Below are positions 199 to 39,706 of a DNA stretch of 41,184 bases, piece after piece. Under the pieces are notes generated by a model that did no database searches, was not told the DNA's origin, and saw only the letters and a list, made by a program, of their open reading frames with translations. Location: the NCBI GenBank assembly GCA_902778325.1, contig CACYWZ010000017.1:1-41184 (forward strand), given 5' to 3'. The stretch comes from an uncultured Spirochaetaceae bacterium. Its GTDB lineage: Bacteria > Spirochaetota > Spirochaetia > Treponematales > Treponemataceae. The stretch's first letter is position 1, and each line of letters begins with the position of its first letter. Made by a program: the position numbers and the translations under genes.

Positions 199-242
199 TC
201 CGTTTTGTACAAGCACAGCCTGCTTTTAAAGCAAAGATTGAT

Positions 243-281
243 AAAAAAAAGCGAGTTCCAAGAATACGGGACTCGCTTTTT
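243..281 (-). terminator. rho-independent terminator of the 298-5439 operon
   Basis: The inverted repeat GCGAGTTCC / GGGACTCGC (one mismatch) is flanked by A-runs on one side and T-runs on the other, so it can act in both directions. On the minus strand it follows the last stop of the operon (TAA at 298-300) and is followed by eight T residues. Confidence 0.8.
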
Positions 282-297
282 GTTCAGAATGACATAG

Positions 298-507
298 TTA
301 GAACTTCATATACGAAAAGCCTGCAAGGTCGTTCGTGAGTTCACGCTCGCTTCTTGAAAATTCTGCGATTTTGTCAGCAATCTCGGAATATTTGCCTTCG
401 CTGTCTTCCAGCGTGAGAATCTGATATTCGGCTTCACAAAGAGCCTTTATCTTTTCTCCCACAATGCCGTAAAAATCGAAGTCAGTTGGGAATAACTTCT
501 TGAACTC
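298..507 (-). other. 69-codon in-frame continuation after the TAG stop of the Cys-cluster gene
   Basis: After the TAG at 508-510 the same minus-strand frame stays open for 69 codons to a TAA at 298-300, just before the terminator. The translation begins EFKKLFPTDFDFYG and ends ELTNDLAGFSYMKF; its composition looks like a real soluble helical C-terminus. No ATG lies at its start. A TAGGAG that could act as a ribosome site overlaps the stop, and the only non-ATG start seen is a GTG at its 16th codon. It could be a nonsense-interrupted C-terminus, a readthrough product, or the tail of another gene fused by deletion. Confidence 0.5.
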
Positions 508-861
508 CTATATGGAAGTTTCCACATTTTGCTCGTCTTTAGTCTTAAAAATTACCTTGTCGTAAGAGTCCGCTTCGGAAATCTTTTTGACCTGCAATTC
601 TCTGCACACACGCTCGTTCAATGCATAGAACTCTGCGCGACTGAATTGTGAAGAAAAGTGTTTTTCATACATTACATCCACACGACAGATTTCTGGGCGT
701 GTTTTATATATATCGCACTTATTGCCACAGAGATGGACGCACACGCCGTCCCCTGTGTCGAATGCGGAAAGTTGAGGTACTTTGTCTATGTGACGGCAAC
801 ACTCACCGCATTGCGAGCAGTGGAATTGTAGAAGCGTTTTTTTCTGTGTCAAATGCGCCAC
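508..861 (-). CDS. YkgJ-type cysteine-cluster protein
   Basis: 117 residues. The N-terminus carries the Cys cluster of the YkgJ/UPF0153 (CxxCxxCC) family: C15-x2-C18-x2-C21-C22, then C41, C45, C49 and an R55-P-x2-C59 motif. The family is thought to bind zinc or an Fe-S cluster; its biochemical role is not established. The start is a GTG at 861, 13 bases inside the preceding gene, so translation is probably coupled. It is the last intact gene of the minus-strand operon. The second half has no recognised motif, and the frame continues after the TAG (see 298-507), so the protein may originally have been longer. Confidence 0.7.
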   Translation of the reverse strand: MAHLTQKKTLLQFHCSQCGECCRHIDKVPQLSAFDTGDGVCVHLCGNKCDIYKTRPEICRVDVMYEKHFSSQFSRAEFYALNERVCRELQVKKISEADSYDKVIFKTKDEQNVETSI

Positions 862-2147
862 CAGCGATTTCCGTCGTAATAGAATGAGCTTGTCATGTCT
901 GTATCAACCTGCGAGGTGTTGTTGATTATGAACGAGAACGGTTTCCCACGTGTGTAACAGCCTTCTGGGATAGTGAACGAAAACCACCCCTTCTTCTCCG
1001 AATTTCGTTGCATTGAGGGGCGATTATCCCAAGAGAACCCCATTTTCTCAGAGCATTTTTCTCCGTTCGGCTGCCACACCCACAGTTTCGGGGCAGAGTC
1101 CGCCTTCACATAGAGCGTCACACTTGAGTCTTTATCGGTTGAAACATTCTTTGTACCGACCTTGCTTCCTACGTCTTGTGCGACAAAAGCGGATTCATCC
1201 GTGAGCTTTCCATCCTCGGTCAGAAGCGGAGTGTCAAGCACTGCCTTGATTGCACCCGCTATCGACACAGCGGCGGCTACAGTGTGCTTTTCGTCGTCTG
1301 TAAATGAGCGGAAGTCCGTGCCGTGCGCAACAATCGCTTTTTCCATTCCAACAATAAGTGGCAGAAAAAGTGAATCAAGGCGGACGAACAGGCGGTAAAA
1401 CAAATATGCACGGCGGCGGATTGCGTTACAGGCGACACCCGCTGTTTCAAGTTCCTCTCGGATTTTTCGTGCGCGGGCAAGATTGGAATATGCCTCGTCA
1501 ACCTGCGCGCTTGCTTTTGCACCGATGACAAAGCCCATCACTGCAAGCGCGGGACCTGCCACCAAGCCGCCGAGCACCGCTGCGCCTCCCGCCATGCCAA
1601 GTCCTCCTGCTGCAAGCGAACCGCCGCCAAAGAATGCGAGCGTTGCGTTTGTTGCTGCTGCTCCGCTCAATGTGGCGATTGCCGTTCCTGTGGAAGCCGT
1701 GGCGAATGTCATTGCCGCACCATATGCGCCGAACGCCGTAAGTGCACCGCCCAACGCACCTGCCGCCGTTCCGCCGAGGATGGAAGCCGCGTAGCCTCCC
1801 ATTTCTTTAAGTTCTGTGAGCGACTGCTTGTCGATGCGGAACTTTGCAAGCTCGTCCAAGCCGACAGATTCAGTTAGCTCCACGTTCTTGAGCTGCTCGA
1901 ATGCGGAAACAAAGCGGTTCATGCTCTTGTCAAGGATGTACAACTTCTTTGAGCCGAGTGCTTCAAGGGATTTCCCGCTTGCCTTGCGTCGTTCCTCCAA
2001 CTCATCTTTTGCATCGTCCACAATGGTGTTTGCGCGTTCGTTTGTGTCCTTTGCGTCTTTCATATCTATTCCCGCCTTGATTCCTTTCCCGATTCCGAGC
2101 AAGCCCGTTCCAATAGCGATTCCGCCAAGAATAAATGGTATAGGCAT
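849..2147 (-). CDS. glycine-rich hydrophobic protein with C-terminal starch-binding-like domain
   Basis: 432 residues. The first 20 residues are hydrophobic and glycine-rich. Residues about 25-115 are charged and probably helical. Residues about 118-215 are a long Gly/Ala-rich stretch with GxxxG spacing typical of membrane-inserting glycine-zipper proteins. The last ~90 residues (from VTLYVKADSAPKLWVW) have Trp/Tyr-rich beta-strand character resembling CBM25/26 starch-binding modules, ending DGNRWWRI. Similar proteins without a known function have been mislabelled chemotaxis proteins. The ribosome site AGGAGG lies 8 bases before the ATG. It follows the TerB-like gene by 14 bases and overlaps the Cys-cluster gene. 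I infer a membrane-associated effector or sensor; the carbohydrate-binding reading is by pattern only. Confidence 0.6.
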   Translation of the reverse strand: MPIPFILGGIAIGTGLLGIGKGIKAGIDMKDAKDTNERANTIVDDAKDELEERRKASGKSLEALGSKKLYILDKSMNRFVSAFEQLKNVELTESVGLDELAKFRIDKQSLTELKEMGGYAASILGGTAAGALGGALTAFGAYGAAMTFATASTGTAIATLSGAAATNATLAFFGGGSLAAGGLGMAGGAAVLGGLVAGPALAVMGFVIGAKASAQVDEAYSNLARARKIREELETAGVACNAIRRRAYLFYRLFVRLDSLFLPLIVGMEKAIVAHGTDFRSFTDDEKHTVAAAVSIAGAIKAVLDTPLLTEDGKLTDESAFVAQDVGSKVGTKNVSTDKDSSVTLYVKADSAPKLWVWQPNGEKCSEKMGFSWDNRPSMQRNSEKKGWFSFTIPEGCYTRGKPFSFIINNTSQVDTDMTSSFYYDGNRWWRI

Positions 2148-2161
2148 AATTTATTCCTCCT

Positions 2162-2740
2162 TTAGCCCAAATAAACTAAATCATAAATACTGTCATTCAG
2201 AACATCTTTGTCTTCTTTGCATTGCCTGTTTATTTCCGCCATTTCGCTGTCAGAAAGATTTTCAGATTCAGCCCACTGAGGTTTCTTTTCGATGAGCAAA
2301 AAAGATTCCATCGTGTCTTTCATTTCCTGCACATAGCTTTCGTCAATTTTCATCTTAGAAGCAAACGACTGTATGAACGTATCGTCAAACTCAGAACGCT
2401 TTTCGGAAGTGTAACTGAGACGGATGAGCCACCACAGCACAGTAAGCCCGCGCTCTTCTCCTTCATCATTGCTTCCTATGCCGTATTCTTTCATAAGCGA
2501 TGAAAAAGAAGAAGATGATGATGCATATCTTTCTGCATACTCAGGCAGCACCTCTGAAATTTTTTTCTGAGCAACCTCTTTCTTTTTGAATTCTTTTTTG
2601 AACTCAGAAAGTTGGACACTTTCCCAATCTGGCAATTTTACAACCTTTTCTAGTTCGTTGAATTCCGCAGTTTTTTCTTTTTCATCCCCTCCGCCAGCCT
2701 GCATAAACAGATAACAGAGAGCCACATCGTCAAAATCCAT
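2162..2740 (-). CDS. TerB-like acidic helical protein
   Basis: 192 residues, acidic and all-helical by composition, with no signal peptide. The opening DDVALCYLFMQAGGGD resembles the first helix and acidic loop of TerB-like domains (a usual pattern is a small hydrophobic helix followed by ADG and acidic residues). TerB belongs to the tellurite/phage-type membrane stress systems and may bind metal. The usual ADG appears here as AGGG, so the metal site may be altered. A Ser run lies near residue 75 (ASSSSSFSS). The ribosome site GGAGG is well placed. It sits between the two glycine-rich proteins in the operon. The assignment is tentative. Confidence 0.45.
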   Translation of the reverse strand: MDFDDVALCYLFMQAGGGDEKEKTAEFNELEKVVKLPDWESVQLSEFKKEFKKKEVAQKKISEVLPEYAERYASSSSSFSSLMKEYGIGSNDEGEERGLTVLWWLIRLSYTSEKRSEFDDTFIQSFASKMKIDESYVQEMKDTMESFLLIEKKPQWAESENLSDSEMAEINRQCKEDKDVLNDSIYDLVYLG

Positions 2741-2757
2741 TTTGTTCCTCCTGTGGA

Positions 2758-4281
2758 CTATAATCTGAGCGTTCCGTTCATTTGCATGAATGAATCGAAC
2801 TCGCTGTAATTTGAAAACTTCACGGTGCCGCCAAACTTTGCGGTGATTGCGTTTGCCCCTGCCATAAAGCCATCGATATTGTTCAAGCCGATTGCGCGGT
2901 TCATCTGGCTGAATGCGTCAGTAAAGACAGCAATATGGTCTGACAAATATGTTGACACGGCTTTTTCCATTTCTGTGCGGTACTGCCGTATGAGTGTGAT
3001 TGCCTCCGCACATTCCCTTTCTACGCGGAGTCGTTCCTCATGCGCAAGTTTCGCCTGTTTGAGTGCACTCAAAAGCTCGCCGTAGCAGCTGGAGGCAAGC
3101 GCATAGCCGAGCATTGAGCCTATCATGCCTCCCACAACAGGAATGGGAATGAGCAACTGTCCCGCCGATGCGAACATCGCGGAACTCAAAAGCCCTGTGC
3201 CTTTTTCGCCTAGTTCTTCCAAACATTCCACACCGTCAATCTCTCCGCGGATATATTTTCCGAACGACTTTCCGCTTTCCATTGCGACTGTAACGACTGT
3301 AGCGGCAAGGTTAGTCCGTGCGAGCGTACGCATTGTTTCGTTCCCCGCGTTCTGCATTGCGCCTTTTATGGCGGAGCCTGTAAATGCCGTCGCGTAACTT
3401 GCCGCCGCCCCTGTCGCCGTGTCCTTGACCACGGAAAGCGCTGCTTCGTCCGCCGATTCCTCGCCTTTCACTACGGAAACGAGATTCCGCACGAGCGACA
3501 CGCCGCCGCCGATTGCCGCACCGTACTTCGCCTGCTCTATGCCCGCTCGATGAGCCACTTTTACAACATCTTTCGCAGTGGAAAGCACGGGGTGAAGCCG
3601 CGCCTCCATCGCTTCTGCATTGGAAACACCAGAATCCTTCAAACTCGCCTTTATTTTCTCGTATTTGGCGATTTTCTCCTCAAGTTGTTCCGCGAGCTCC
3701 GCATTGCCATCGGCGCGGGCGCGCTCAAGCTGCTTTTGGAAACCTGCAATGGACTTGTCTGCCTCCGCAAGAATGCCATCGTAGTAGTCGCTCGGAACGG
3801 TAATCGTCGCGTCCGCGTCAAAATACTTCTGGAATTTTTTGGAAGCGAGTTTGTTAAGAGCAGCTTTTGGGTCACTCCCAACGAACTTCATCTGCTCCTG
3901 AGCGATGACGTTGCCATTCTTGTCCGTGATGATATGATCAAAAAGTTCGTTGTAGCCACCACTTCCTTTTACGTCGGTATTGTGGACGCGCGATTTGTCT
4001 CCGTTGATTATCTTCTCTGCGTTCTGCCGCGCAGTATATTTGTTTTCCGCTGCGAATCCCGCTTGTTGCTTGAGGTTCTGCGCCTCATATTCTGGATTGA
4101 CATTACTTCCAGCAATGTCCTTGAGCCCCTTTTTTAGCTGTTCGCCCGTCTCGTTGTCCATGCCCGAATAGGCGACAAAATGCTCCTTAATCGCAGAGCC
4201 ATACCGCTGCACAACCTCCGCAGCCGCACCAGATTGCGCGACATTGGTAAGTGTACTGAGTTTTTCATCGTCTTTATTCAT
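2758..4281 (-). CDS. 507-aa protein: possible nuclease-like N-terminus plus glycine-rich membrane-type half
   Basis: Residues about 70-145 contain ARQNAEKIINGDKSR, then ELFDHIITD and AQEQMKFVG. The order D..(Q/E)xK recalls the PD-(D/E)XK fold or related toxin-type nucleases; this is pattern-based. A coiled-coil stretch (about 175-215) rich in Glu/Lys follows. From about residue 235 there are several Gly/Ala-rich segments (YGAAIGGGVSLV, TGAAASYATAF, PVVGGMIGSMLGYAL) able to insert in membranes, then a helical charged tail. I recall similar uncharacterised proteins in other bacteria but cannot name a family. The ribosome site GAGGT precedes the ATG. It lies 17 bases before the TerB-like gene, suggesting one functional unit. 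Confidence 0.55.
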   Translation of the reverse strand: MNKDDEKLSTLTNVAQSGAAAEVVQRYGSAIKEHFVAYSGMDNETGEQLKKGLKDIAGSNVNPEYEAQNLKQQAGFAAENKYTARQNAEKIINGDKSRVHNTDVKGSGGYNELFDHIITDKNGNVIAQEQMKFVGSDPKAALNKLASKKFQKYFDADATITVPSDYYDGILAEADKSIAGFQKQLERARADGNAELAEQLEEKIAKYEKIKASLKDSGVSNAEAMEARLHPVLSTAKDVVKVAHRAGIEQAKYGAAIGGGVSLVRNLVSVVKGEESADEAALSVVKDTATGAAASYATAFTGSAIKGAMQNAGNETMRTLARTNLAATVVTVAMESGKSFGKYIRGEIDGVECLEELGEKGTGLLSSAMFASAGQLLIPIPVVGGMIGSMLGYALASSCYGELLSALKQAKLAHEERLRVERECAEAITLIRQYRTEMEKAVSTYLSDHIAVFTDAFSQMNRAIGLNNIDGFMAGANAITAKFGGTVKFSNYSEFDSFMQMNGTLRL

Positions 4282-4337
4282 TATGACCTCGTTTACTAAT
4301 TGTGCGCCGAATATGTGTATTGCTACAAATCGCTAAG

Positions 4338-4406
4338 CTAGTCGAGAAGCCTGTCAAAAACAACCTTATTTTCCTCAATTCCGTCGCCAGAAAACTCAAT
4401 ACTCAT
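4338..4406 (-). CDS. 22-aa ORF with strong ribosome site
   Basis: The minus strand shows GGAGG eight bases before an ATG at 4406, opening 22 codons (MSIEFSGDGIEENK...) ending at TAG 4338-4340. It lies 16 bases after the zinc-ribbon stop and 56 bases before the 507-aa gene. The good ribosome site makes translation likely, but whether it is a small functional protein or the surviving start of a truncated gene cannot be told. Confidence 0.4.
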   Translation of the reverse strand: MSIEFSGDGIEENKVVFDRLLD

Positions 4407-4422
4407 ACGCTGTACCTCCGTA

Positions 4423-4608
4423 TCAATAAAGTATTCTCTTGTCTTTTTCAGTGTTACAGCTATTGCACTTTGGGCATTTTGCCTTAATCACTGAAGTTAA
4501 AAATCCCATATCCTGAGCATAAAAGCTATGTCCGCAGTCTTTGCAAACGAACATCACCTTATCGCCCATTTTTTGCGGAACAAAACCTCTCGATTTTGCC
4601 GTGAACAT
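4423..4608 (-). CDS. small zinc-ribbon protein
   Basis: 61 residues with two Cys pairs, C22-x2-C25 (VCKDCGH) and C45-x2-C48 (KCPKCNSC), the layout of a rubredoxin-like zinc ribbon. There is no other domain. It is likely a nucleic-acid- or protein-binding adaptor. A GGAGGAG ribosome site precedes the ATG. It sits in the accessory operon, 120 bases after the DUF4469 gene; the gap holds degenerate repeats. No specific family is recognised. Confidence 0.6.
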   Translation of the reverse strand: MFTAKSRGFVPQKMGDKVMFVCKDCGHSFYAQDMGFLTSVIKAKCPKCNSCNTEKDKRILY

Positions 4609-4633
4609 AAAACTCTCCTCCGTCTAAATCGCT

Positions 4634-4740
4634 GTTACTCCACGACGATTATCGTGGCACTCGCTCGACTCTCGTCGTGGAAGCCCTCGATACTCGTCGT
4701 GGCTCTTGCTCGATAGCCGTCGTGAACTTTACTCGACAAT
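4634..4740. repeat. degenerate 22-23 bp repeats with CTCGTCGTGG core
   Basis: CTCGA anchors recur at 4664, 4686, 4709 and 4732, each followed by a version of CTCGTCGTGG. A hairpin CCACGA/TCGTGG lies just before. The last copy runs into the 3' end of the DUF4469 gene. The core CTCGTCGTGG also appears in the separate array at 9425-9589. Confidence 0.6.
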
Positions 4741-5439
4741 CGTGATTTGACGCTCAAAAACTCCTGTCTTGAGGATTTTTGTCGACTGCGAATTAGAGCC
4801 GAGCTTCGTTCTCACTTCCACGCTGTACGCGCCTGCGCTAACGTCCGCACCAATCATCACTTTGATGATTGAGGCGGAGTTTTCCACAGCACGAGAAAGA
4901 CGCACCGTCTTTTCGCCCACGAGGAACACGCCCTGCTCCGCGTCTGACGGGTCAAACTTCAATCTTGCGCCCGAAATCATCATCACAGAGCCGACTTTAA
5001 CAGTATCAACCGCCGTATTCTCGTCTGCAAAGAAGTCGCGTACCGTTTCCAAGTTCGGAGAAGCTGGATTGACTTTGACTTTTGTGAGCTTGATTTTCTT
5101 TATGGCTTCTTTGATAAGAGAGCCTGCTGTCGCATTGACGCGGACGGTGTGGCGTTTTGGGTCGAAGCTGTCGGTTGCGTCGGTGAAAATGCCCTGAATG
5201 GAAAGCGATGTGCTGAAAAGCTCGGTTGAAACCGTGCCGCCTTCTTCGTGGATTTTGCGGATTTCGTCGCTGATAGCGTTCCACGAGGCTTCAAGGTCGA
5301 TTTTGCTTGTAACGTTGCCATGAGCGGCTGCTCGGTCGATAATCTCATCGCGAGTGTACGATTTTACGCCCACAAACTGAGCAACTTTGTCGTTTGGGTC
5401 TTCGGTAAATATGTTGTCTTTAAAAGCATAATTTGCCAT
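4729..5439 (-). CDS. HU/IHF-like DNA-binding protein with DUF4469 C-terminus
   Basis: 236 residues from the ATG at 5439, chosen because GGAGG lies 6 bases before it; a weaker upstream start would add four residues. Residues 1-120 match the Bvu_2165-type HU-like N-terminus (SYTRDEIIDRAA, then SFDPKRHTVRVNATAG near residue 110). Residues about 140-236 form the beta-rich DUF4469 domain, which resembles a carbohydrate-binding or Ig-like fold. HU-like domains bind DNA or have been turned to other scaffolding roles; this subfamily's role is unknown. It is the first gene of the accessory operon. Good family match, unknown function. Confidence 0.8.
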   Translation of the reverse strand: MANYAFKDNIFTEDPNDKVAQFVGVKSYTRDEIIDRAAAHGNVTSKIDLEASWNAISDEIRKIHEEGGTVSTELFSTSLSIQGIFTDATDSFDPKRHTVRVNATAGSLIKEAIKKIKLTKVKVNPASPNLETVRDFFADENTAVDTVKVGSVMMISGARLKFDPSDAEQGVFLVGEKTVRLSRAVENSASIIKVMIGADVSAGAYSVEVRTKLGSNSQSTKILKTGVFERQITIVE

Positions 5440-5465
5440 TTTTTCCTCCAAAAAGTGATATATAA

Positions 5466-5512
5466 ATAAAAAAAGCCCGTACTTGATATGCTAAAAGCGC
5501 ACCAATACAGGC
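5466..5512 (-). promoter_or_regulatory. terminator-like hairpin in the leader of the DUF4469 operon
   Basis: On the minus strand GCCTGTATTGGTGCGC pairs, with G-U pairs, with GCATATCAAGTACGGGC and is followed by seven T residues, 26 bases before the start codon's GGAGG region. It may terminate readthrough from upstream or act as an attenuator for the operon. Confidence 0.5.
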
Positions 5513-5584
5513 GATTATGTGAGAAGTAATGAGAAATAGTTGTATTGTGGATTGAAGTATCTTTTACAAAAGACGCTATGCGTC

Positions 5585-5679
5585 CAAGGCACAAGGCACA
5601 AGGCACAAGGCACAAGGCACAAGGCACAAGGCACAAGGCACAAGGCACAAGGCACAAGGCACAAGGCACAAGGCACAAG
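5585..5679. repeat. heptanucleotide tandem repeat (CAAGGCA), 13.6 copies
   Basis: The unit CAAGGCA is repeated without interruption for 95 bases. It lies about 150 bases upstream of the DUF4469 start. All three frames of the repeat are open, which creates a spurious CLVPCAL-repeat ORF on the minus strand. Perfect short repeats of this kind change copy number by slippage. The remaining stretch 5680-5795 shows only a TACTGT/ACAGTA inverted repeat at 5740-5772. Confidence 0.95.
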
Positions 5680-9384: not shown

Positions 9385-9625
9385 CTCCCAAAGCCAAAAT
9401 TTTTGTTTTCTTGTTGATGTAGCGCTCCCATGGCTTCCCTAAGTCGTTTTCTCGTCGTGGGAGAGCTCCCAAGCGTTCCCTAACACGTTTTCTCGTCGTG
9501 GGAGCACTCCCAAAGCTTCCCTAACTCGTTTTCTCGTCGTGGGAGAGCTCCCAAGGCTTCCCTAACACGTTTTCTCGTCGTGGGAGAGCTCCCAAACCCA
9601 AAATATCGATTTTTGACTTTGGGAG
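9385..9625. repeat. 41-bp tandem array flanked by an inverted repeat
   Basis: The anchor CTCCCA recurs at 9425, 9466, 9507, 9548 and 9589, exactly 41 bases apart: four full units and one partial. Each unit holds TTCCCTAA and TTTTCTCGTCGTGGGAG; across unit boundaries TGGGAG/CTCCCA forms a hairpin. The block is bounded by CTCCCAAAGCCAAAA (9385-9399) and TTTTGACTTTGGGAG (9611-9625), inverted copies with one mismatch. It lies between the convergent genes 9149-9349 and 9639-11378. Confidence 0.95.
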
Positions 9626-14811: not shown

Positions 14812-15069
14812 TTTGAATAATACTTGCCGCAAGTTGTTTTGAACATTATTCGTTTGAATAATGCTTGCCGCAAAGTGTTTTGGGCATTCTTCGTTTAAAT
14901 AATGGCTCGCGCAAAGTGTTTTGACCATTATTCGTTTGAATAATGGCTCGCGCAAAGTGTTTTGACCATTATTCGTTTGAATAATGGCTCACGCAAAGTG
15001 TTTTGAGCATTATTCGTTTGAATAATGGCTCGCGCAAAGTGTTTTGAACATTATTCGTTTGAACAAGAA
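14812..15069. repeat. 41-bp tandem array with hairpin at each junction
   Basis: TTTGAATAAT anchors occur at 14812, 14853, 14894, 14935, 14976, 15017 and 15058: six full 41-base units. Each unit has AATAATGGCTCGCGCAAAGTG then TTTTGACCATTATTCG (read in order). Consecutive units form CCATTATTC-GTTT-GAATAATGG, a perfect 9-bp stem with a 4-base loop in the best copies. It lies between the lysK terminator and the SGNH esterase stop at 15070. Confidence 0.95.
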
Positions 15070-19974: not shown

Positions 19975-20140
19975 TGAAAAAGGAAGCAATAAATTTGAAT
20001 TTTGTAACTACCAATAGAAAAAGAAGCCAATAAATTTGAATTTTTTATCTCCCCACAGAAAAAGGAAGCGATAAATTTAAATTTTTTTTCTATCCATAGA
20101 AAAAGGAGGCAATAAATTTAAATTTATTGCCTCCTTTTCA
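19975..20140. repeat. 41-bp tandem array ending in a perfect 32-base palindrome
   Basis: ATAAATTT recurs at 19989, 20030, 20071 and 20112, and AGAAAAA anchors at 20016, 20057 and 20098: exact 41-base steps, about four units. The last unit closes as AGGAGGCAATAAATTT followed by its complete reverse complement, a perfect palindrome flanked by A and T runs. That hairpin can terminate the PrsW-like gene (stop at 20168) on the minus strand. The array fills the gap to the chemoreceptor start. Confidence 0.9.
20103..20140 (-). terminator. terminator of the PrsW-like gene
   Basis: A perfect 16-bp inverted repeat flanked by A/T runs, 28 bases after the stop. It is also the last unit of the 41-bp array. 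Confidence 0.75.
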
Positions 20141-37580: not shown

Positions 37581-37753
37581 CTACCCCAAAAGCCTCTTTC
37601 CCAAAACTGGAAAAGCCAGAAACAAATGTTTTTTCTCTTTCCCAAAGCAGAGGCAAATCCGCTGTATACAAAGTGTATTCAAAGTGTATAGGAGCAGACT
37701 TGGAGCAATTTGGCTTCAGCAAAACAGGAAAAGTGATTTTTAGTAATTTGTAA
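37574..37753 (+). CDS. 59-aa ORF overlapping the 3' end of the previous gene
   Basis: A GTG at 37574 overlaps the TGA stop of the 111-aa gene and opens 59 codons, including [35 protein letters not shown], ending at 37753 inside the convergent methylase end. It could be a coupled gene or the frameshifted C-terminus of the 111-aa protein. It contains three 11-bp near-repeats (TGTATACAAAG type, about 37673-37703). Confidence 0.4.
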
Positions 37754-38882
37754 TCAGCAAATGCTGAACATCTTTGTTGTTGCGGTTCATAAAACTCACA
37801 AGATATTTTTTATCAAAAGCACGGATTGAGAGATTTTTGTTTTCATAAAGCGAAAGAATAAAAGGCGTGCTTTTTATAATAAGCATAAACTTCGCTTTGC
37901 ACTCGTTCGTCAAATAATCAGCAAGGCGTTTTTGGTCTGCTTTGTCAAATGTGTTTTTGGCATAAGTGCTAAACTCGCTGTCATATGGAGGGTCAAGAAA
38001 GATAAAATCTTTTTCTGTTGGCTTTTTTGCTTTCAGGAACTCTGCAAAATCAAGATTGAAAATCTCAGTTTTAGAAAGTTTGTACTCTAAGTTTTGAGAG
38101 CGATAATATTCTAGTTTTTTGTCCAAAGTTTTTGCATTATAGCCAATTCCGCCATAAGGAACGTTAAACTCGCCTTTTTTGTTGTAGCGAAACATTCCAC
38201 TATAGCAATAATTTCGTATAAACAAAAACAGAGCAGTTGCAAGACTTTTGTTTTTTGCACAAAGTTTTTCGTTGTTGTACAAATAGCGAAAATACATATA
38301 CACACCGCTCAAAAAGCCTGTCTGAATGTTCAAAAACAAATCTTCATCACAAAGCAAATGCAGTTTCTTTTCCAGTCTGTTCATTCTTGAGATTTTGTCA
38401 AACAGATTTTTCTTTATTTCTGCAATAAACTTCTCTTGCTCTGGAAAATCATTTTTATGAACAGCGCAAAGGTCTTTTTCAGAACTTGCAAATGTCGTTT
38501 CAAAAATATTTGCGACAGTCTTTTTTGAAAAATCAGCATTGCGGTTTGCTTTGTAAAGAGATACAAAACTTTGATGAGAGTCTAAAAATTTTCCGATTTC
38601 TTTCCTTATTTTCATTATTTTTTCTGAATACAAAAAGAAATCTTTGTCTTTTGTTTTTATTGCATTGTACAAATCAATAAGTTCACAAGATTTATCGTTG
38701 ATAAAATACTTCTTTGCACTTATTGCAGAAAAAACTGCTCCGCCTCCAACAAAAGGCTCATAAAAGTTTTCAAACTTTGGTAAATTTTCAAGAATAATCG
38801 GCAGTTCTTTTTCTTTTCCACCAGCCCATTTTATAATTGGAGTTAATTTTTTATTGCACTCGTCAGATTCAAACAGATTCAT
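37740..38882 (-). CDS. D12-class (Dam-like) DNA adenine methyltransferase
   Basis: 380 residues. The AdoMet-binding motif is [14 protein letters not shown] (residues about 15-28), followed by [15 protein letters not shown]; the catalytic motif is [13 protein letters not shown] near residue 297. D12 enzymes put an N6-methyl on adenine. It is longer than Dam itself (about 280), with a ~90-residue helical insertion (target-recognition) after residue 75. It overlaps the preceding nuclease gene by four bases (ATGA), so it is the modification half of a type II system. The recognition sequence cannot be read from the protein. Confidence 0.88.
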
Positions 38883-39706
38883 TTTATTTTCCTGTTTGAA
38901 TCTGGCAAATATGCTTTTTTGATTTTGTTCAGCGCGGAAATAATCAGATTTGCGTTTTTCTTGTACTCGTCGATTACGATGTCATATCCGTTTGAGGCTT
39001 TGCAAATCATATTCCAAAAGTCAGAACTGATTAAAAGCTCTTCTTTTGAGAAAAATTGCAAAACTCTGCCCTGATTCCACTCATTTCCCTCGCCATAACG
39101 ATTATATGCAGTAGCAAAATAGATTTTTACCTTTTCTTCAGAACCAAGCGTGTTTGTGAGAATGCAATATTGTTCCAAAAGAGCTTCTTTTTCAGAACGA
39201 GCCTTTTTGTTGTCCAAATCTCCGCCAATTTTCAGCTCAATCAAATAGTGCATTCCATTTTCTGGGTCTTTCAAGCAATAATCGCTTTCGTGGCGTTTAG
39301 TGATTTTGTCGTTCTCGTTCGAATATTTTGCAATTCCCGTGTAATCACAAATTGCAGGAACACGAGCGTGGCGTTTGTATTCTTCAAGGATTTTTGCAAT
39401 ATAAGTCCTTTGTTCTCCGTACAAAACACCCTCAACATGTTGCGTAACGTCGTAATTTATGCCAGCAATGTTAATCGCCATAGTTTCAAGCATATTGCCC
39501 AAACTTGAATCAAGAGAACGCACAAGAGCCGAATAATACTGAATTTCTGGACCAAGCGCAGAAATAAAAATATTGTGGATTTTTGAGTTTATAACTCCGT
39601 TTTCGTTGTGAAGCTCGGAAATATGTTTATCACAAAATCCGCTTGCATATCCTTCAACCGCACTTTTTACTATCGCACGAATAGCTTTTTCTTTATCTAC
39701 CGTCAT
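38879..39706 (-). CDS. type II restriction endonuclease (TdeIII-like family likely)
   Basis: 275 residues. A PD-(D/E)XK core is visible: [20 protein letters not shown] gives the Asp, the ExK and a following GGDLDNKKA. The segments [20 protein letters not shown] and [20 protein letters not shown], and [14 protein letters not shown], fit a type II enzyme family I associate with TdeIII; I am not certain of the name. Located four bases before the methylase and divergent from an HTH controller, the usual layout of a self-regulated restriction-modification operon. Confidence 0.72.

Follow-up and report, generated by a model that had tools for sequence, protein, structure and literature searches.

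A recurrent four-gene module in an uncultured Spirochaetaceae bacterium and its proposed relation to the defence candidate PDC-M09

The contig CACYWZ010000017.1 of an uncultured Spirochaetaceae bacterium (assembly GCA_902778325.1, 3.35 Mb in 173 contigs) was analysed as one whole contig of 41,184 nucleotides, called the window in the following, and carries on its minus strand, at 508-4281, a module of four genes in the order M09B-TerB-M09A-Cys. M09B and M09A are proteins of 507 and 432 amino acids (aa), TerB stands for a TerB-like protein of 192 aa, and Cys for a CxxCxxCC protein of 117 aa. That these four genes form a recurrent unit is well supported, and judging from their sequences the module is probably an anti-phage defence system. 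With modest confidence, and on balance, we read it as a defence-type operon that represents an extended form of PDC-M09, a candidate system of PADLOC, with a membrane and nuclease working that is proposed below.

The likeness to PDC-M09 lies in the two large proteins, which match its A and B models (M09A: PDLC04407, E 4.8e-27; M09B: PDLC04409, E 3.3e-12) and are encoded one small gene apart; the A model is also matched by 17 of the 19 aligned M09A sequences. The window unit differs in that it adds the TerB-like and CxxCxxCC genes and a C-terminal CBM26/immunoglobulin (Ig)-like tail of M09A, whereas the scans showed no PDC-M09 models besides A and B. A first, sequence-only reading of this locus could not name the combination of genes. 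For the two large proteins a name thus exists, but the companions, the swapping of effectors and the link to JukA did not turn up in searches of open-licence PubMed Central (PMC) papers, which did not name PDC-M09 itself, and the parts examined of a rumen defence survey (PMC13356809) do not name it either. In whole-genome searches of the source genome, M09B was found once, in the window, and M09A twice, the second copy lying on contig C68.

A scan of genome contigs with the M09B alignment yielded 25 M09B loci, and all component counts rest on a search of every frame of at least 30 aa in 56 sequences. In 22 of the 25 loci M09A is next to M09B or one small gene away from it, and the other three lie at or near contig ends. 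Among these 22, a TerB-like gene is present in 16 and a gene of the DUF3944/JukA type in four, while two (L091, L104) have neither and none has both (E 0.001). The PADLOC model of JukA was confirmed on L090, L092 and L095; L096 is near-identical to L095, and M09A is shortened in L093 and truncated by the contig end in L099. The Cys gene is separate in seven of the 25 loci, after M09A in six and before M09B in L100, and it is fused to M09B in L104; the all-frame search also finds it in L056, and in L100 it finds both the TerB-like and the Cys gene. The 25 loci are labelled as Treponema or other Spirochaetota, Bacteroidales, Lachnospiraceae, Ruminococcus and relatives, Fusobacteriaceae, one Deltaproteobacteria and one Cyanobacteria metagenome-assembled genome (MAG). 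The closest named relatives of the window are Treponema MAGs, one of them with an M09B that is 82% identical. Some records apparently belong to two of our locus sets (L048/L086, L049/L088, L055/L083, L058/L085, L063/L103), and the sets were not summed.

Sampling across the phylum gave matches to the M09B model in 12 of 296 genomes, and nine regions were fetched from these, leaving out G000 (the window itself), G015 (identical to L064) and G347. Four of the nine contain M09B-TerB-(177 aa)-M09A-Cys, all of them in a second spirochaete family; one of these, L123, has its M09B divided between two ORFs (open reading frames). In another four, an ORF of 815-844 aa matches M09B weakly and stands without companions, and one region has no match.

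This recurrence also redraws the border of the unit. The sequence-only reading had proposed seven ORFs at 298-5439, headed by a DUF4469 gene, as one system, and all seven are indeed present on the minus strand at these positions, with the following layout:

236-300, minus strand: terminator-type hairpin with U-run (z -4.96)
298-462, minus strand: 54-aa ORF, doubtful member; best family match at E 0.1
508-861, minus strand: CxxCxxCC protein, 117 aa (PF03692)
849-2147, minus strand: M09A, 432 aa (PADLOC PDC-M09A, PDLC04407)
2162-2740, minus strand: TerB-like protein, 192 aa (TerB via homologues)
2758-4281, minus strand: M09B, 507 aa (PADLOC PDC-M09B, PDLC04409)
4282-4422, minus strand: gap with a 22-codon remnant that, on reading both sequences, resembles the start of a 228-aa gene before M09B in locus L082
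4423-4608, minus strand: zinc ribbon, 61 aa, families below cut-off; doubtful member
4729-5439, minus strand: HU-type and DUF4469 protein, 236 aa from ATG or 240 aa from an upstream TTG; probably a bystander

The claim of short gaps or overlaps stands for the first five ORFs (a 45-nt gap between the 54-aa and 117-aa frames, a 13-nt overlap between the 117-aa and 432-aa frames, then 14 and 17 nt up to the 192-aa and 507-aa frames). It fails for the last two: with 141 nt between the 507-aa gene and the zinc ribbon and 120 nt between the zinc ribbon and the HU gene, these are not tightly packed with the other five. As to the single leader and single terminator that had been postulated, hairpins that would fit both ends are present: the downstream one at 236-300 is matched in stability by 0 of 200 shuffles, and a weaker one followed by a U-run (5440-5520, z -2.78) directly precedes the HU gene. 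A terminator scan of the window gives 9 sites against 7.7 in shuffles, about as many, and a transcript shared by all seven genes is putative. A search of Rfam found no family.

Could all seven genes nevertheless work together, with the HU/DUF4469 protein, the zinc ribbon and the 54-aa ORF as working parts? Their common strand and the one upstream and one downstream hairpin would agree with this, as would a weakly related zinc ribbon that lies beside the TerB-like-M09A pair in L066, but the 120- and 141-nt gaps and the recurrence data make it very improbable. The HU-like and DUF4469 domains are confirmed by Pfam (PF14848, E 4e-24; PF14734, E 1.7e-14), yet the source genome has 16 matches to such genes, 13 of them over the Pfam cut-off, and since M09B occurs once and M09A twice, the majority of these HU genes lie away from any M09 gene. 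Across the 55 other loci there is no match to the HU/DUF4469 protein except one 27% fragment (E 0.008). We therefore reject the idea that this protein binds DNA for the system and regard its gene as probably a bystander, a dispersed paralogue, so that the gene heading the original finding is probably unrelated to it. The 54-aa ORF has no match in the 55 other loci and belongs to no family. The zinc ribbon, whose label is backed by matches below the cut-off only, hardly recurs either: among the same 55 loci, weak relatives occur in only two distinct records, in L066, where the relative lies between a WYL gene and the TerB-like-M09A pair, and in L058/L085, where it is ~4 kb from the module. Because of these relatives we keep the ribbon as a doubtful member. 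The seven-gene border was thus drawn too wide, and what recurs is the 507-, 192-, 432- and 117-aa genes. None of the seven proteins has an NCBIfam match at a curated cut-off. Around the HU gene, a perfect 7-bp array (CAAGGCA, 13.6 copies) lies upstream at 5585-5679, and 23-bp repeats at 4652-4736, in a stretch that folds strongly, separate it from the zinc-ribbon gene.

Nucleases of the PD-(D/E)xK superfamily share the motif E..D..(D/E/Q)xK. In M09B, E79, D115, Q130 and K132 (the last two forming Q130-x-K132) are invariant in 20 of 20 sequences and thus present this motif, and in the structural model (predicted local distance difference test score, pLDDT, 83.7) they occupy the positions expected for the predicted core. 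The nuclease-like N-terminus noticed at first is therefore supported, and residues of about 60-165 are predicted to form a PD-(D/E)xK-type nuclease domain. Beyond it lies an extended helical region, in which residues 361-401 form a hydrophobic segment free of charges.

For M09A, two long helices are predicted around a charge-free Gly/Ala-rich segment of 95 residues (116-210). The initial label "glycine-zipper-like" holds for this composition, but not for the spacing: small-x3-small patterns are no more frequent than in shuffles (p 0.49), and a zipper signal beyond composition is rejected. Residues of about 336-430 form the extra CBM26/Ig-like domain (CBM26 match at E 0.0064, under the cut-off), which the closest relatives lack; M09A in L082 stops at residue 332. 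In several relatives, translations indicate zinc ribbons fused to M09A or M09B. Large ORFs that match only the C-terminal domain were kept out of the M09A counts. In L021 (G018, contig C1), a 1988-aa ORF contains a domain like the C-terminal one of window M09A three times. Weak matches to the Gly/Ala-rich segment in ORFs of 605 and 654 aa (L029, L031) also stand outside the counts.

The 192-aa window protein itself has no relevant family match. Its TerB-like label is borne out through its homologues: three of the four that were scanned (L085, L094, L103) pass the cut-off of PF05099 (TerB), with L097 below it, and the window protein matches a profile of 11 homologues at E 7e-30. It is the fastest-diverging of the three proteins compared over 12 loci, the mean pairwise identity being 0.26, as against 0.52 for M09A and 0.55 for M09B, and in 63 of 66 pairs its identity falls below that of M09B. 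Relative to L082, the identities are 82% for M09B, 80% for M09A, 52% for Cys and 33% for the TerB-like protein, and dN/dS (the ratio of nonsynonymous to synonymous substitution rates) is ~0.056 for M09A and 0.31 for the TerB-like protein, values that are only rough as synonymous sites are near-saturated for M09A and saturated for M09B. Such a fast change would fit a sensor in a conflict with phages, but relaxed constraint would explain it as well. We propose that the TerB-like protein is a sensor or adaptor. The Cys protein is of the Zn/Fe-chelating CxxCxxCC type, with a match just over the cut-off (PF03692, 24.4 bits vs 23).

What surprised us most is the modularity: sensor and effector appear exchangeable around one membrane protein. 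Outside the window, M09A frames occur in 19 loci of the taxonomic family to which the window belongs, and 17 of these have an effector-type neighbour. This neighbour is M09B in six, an HNH-type protein in eight and BnzB in two (L054, L065), while in one (L062) it is a 258-aa protein whose match to a restriction type is weak; of the remaining two, L052 begins at a contig start and L066 has no known effector. The HNH-type proteins, as we take them to be, keep D157-H158, N183, N187 and N196 in eight of eight, and their loci contain the Cys gene in eight of eight and the TerB-like gene in three of eight. The one HNH-type protein that was scanned is PDC-M40B-like (E 2.5e-41) and belongs to L051, the second M09A locus of the source genome, where on contig C68 it stands together with a CxxCxxCC gene and M09A. 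As relatives of M09A also pair with HNH-type (PDC-M40B-like) or BnzB proteins, the effector looks swappable. A separate arrangement is seen in L066 (G048:C26, 3878-6386), where WYL, zinc ribbon, TerB-like and short M09A genes follow each other in a row with no known effector.

These pairings link the module to known systems without making it a member of them. Bunzi, which is listed in a table of PMC11206119 and for which, as for Shango, TerB is reported (PMC10952713), resembles it in the BnzB proteins adjoining M09A relatives, and L054 also has a weak BnzA match (E 2.9e-4). Membership in Bunzi is rejected, as a search up to E 1 finds no BnzB in the seven proteins of the locus and the genome gives no BnzA. 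With Juk it shares a JukA-family gene after M09A in four of 25 loci and a similar membrane-type effector logic, a review describing JukA as sensing early infection proteins and recruiting the pore-former JukB (PMC13282480). Silencing of jukA is reported to render the host susceptible (PMC12571901). The window, in contrast, has a TerB-like gene in place of JukA, no JukA among its seven proteins and no JukB match of M09A, and Juk membership is rejected as well. PDC-M40B is represented by the trio of L051, but its nuclease type differs from that of M09B, and PDC-M40A was not found in the genome. Finally, window M09A weakly matches LeoBC of Eleos (E 0.0013), as do seven of 19 M09A sequences at E <= 0.001 (best 4.3e-07; one match each to LeoB and LeoA); with this weak match only and no LeoA among the window proteins, Eleos is rejected too.

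On these grounds we put forward, with more doubt than belief, that a single modular immune family, with the membrane protein M09A in common, comprises PDC-M09, PDC-M40B-like and Bunzi-like loci as its variants. In this family the upstream effector (PD-(D/E)xK, HNH or BnzB) and the sensor (TerB-like or JukA) would be swapped, with CxxCxxCC as a recurrent extra. Working where the phage enters, the complex would breach a protective membrane and use a nuclease of its own to cut the DNA, in contrast to JukB, for which reliance on host nucleases is assumed. Families kept apart in the defence catalogue would then be connected by a membrane component that they have in common and by exchanged partners, and the poorly understood TerB domain is suggested to fill the same slot as the infection sensor JukA. 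Dionysus, which has a TerB homologue (PMC12926258), is described as preventing vesicle formation (PMC13282480).

Mechanistically, the PDC-M09-type operon could work as follows. The fast-changing TerB-like protein, or JukA in its place in Bacteroidales, would sense or mark an early infection structure at a membrane. M09A, with its long helices and charge-free Gly/Ala segment, would insert in or remodel that membrane, M09B, anchored there via its own hydrophobic segment, would cut the incoming DNA, and the CxxCxxCC protein may supply or guard a metal site. Such an early attack on injected DNA is a testable prediction for systems that are listed with an unknown mechanism. The same components could also act abortively, M09A permeabilising the host membrane and M09B cutting host DNA so that the cell dies before phage release, with the TerB-like protein or JukA as trigger or brake; this version we consider unlikely, though to be taken seriously.

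The initial guess at a Ter-linked module of phage-defence type is supported by the PADLOC matches, the JukA and BnzB links and the WYL neighbours. The WYL/BrxR regulator link has been described (PMC9122601). WYL genes occupy nine of 81 slots within two genes of the module vs four of 170 farther ones (p 0.006; nine of 24 loci), counted on gene maps whose ORF picker leaves out overlapping frames, some real genes among them, and skipping L106, where, outside this test, a WYL gene adjoins M09B. In L082, a PLD-type protein like DrmC lies nearby.

Several points weigh against the defence reading and its membrane/nuclease working. The WYL profile was built from three of the tested loci, related loci are not independent, and the first 15 kb of the window have no WYL match. 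Among 25 of the 33 Pfam families listed for the 20 M09B sequences (E 0.1) there is no nuclease family; the M09B and M09A models gave no convincing fold with Foldseek (none at E <= 0.001) or VIA, in whose lists the absence of a family is uninformative, and sequence searches of solved structures gave weak best matches only, apparently unrelated ones. The M09A model is poor (pLDDT 58.4), and in two M09A relatives a large part of the charge-free core is missing. Nearly all loci are MAG contigs, and their organism labels may be wrong, the Cyanobacteria one being Treponema-like in sequence. Two other PADLOC candidates, PDC-M63AB and PDC-S04, reportedly gave no defence in one host (PMC12409345). No M09B relative was confirmed in viral contigs or phage records (89 pattern matches, 0 confirmed), and phage carriage of the module is rejected; a further search of this kind turned up two weak M09A loci, L107 and L108.

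In the second spirochaete family, moreover, the module has ordinary genes as its neighbours, which would agree with a stable chromosomal trait. Together with the TerB domain and the metal-binding type of the CxxCxxCC protein, this setting would suit a Ter-like operon for envelope or tellurite stress that has no anti-phage role. Such a stress operon is improbable in view of the nuclease-type residues kept in 20 of 20 M09B sequences, the swapping with HNH and BnzB types and JukA, and the WYL genes near part of the loci.

Among plasmid records, matches are confined to Azospirillum and Ruminococcus albus. The Azospirillum plasmid has WYL-M09B-M09A, followed by a hypothetical gene and one annotated as PD-(D/E)XK (Pfam below cut-off). 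On the R. albus plasmid pRUMAL01 (L110), M09B has no M09A match and adjoins a HerA-type ATPase gene, which is another combination. Elsewhere in the window, three tandem arrays (9424-9595, 14812-15063, 19976-20125) have different units and the same period of 41 bp, and at 37740-39706 translations indicate apparent adenine methyltransferase and restriction-endonuclease-like ORFs beside a helix-turn-helix gene.

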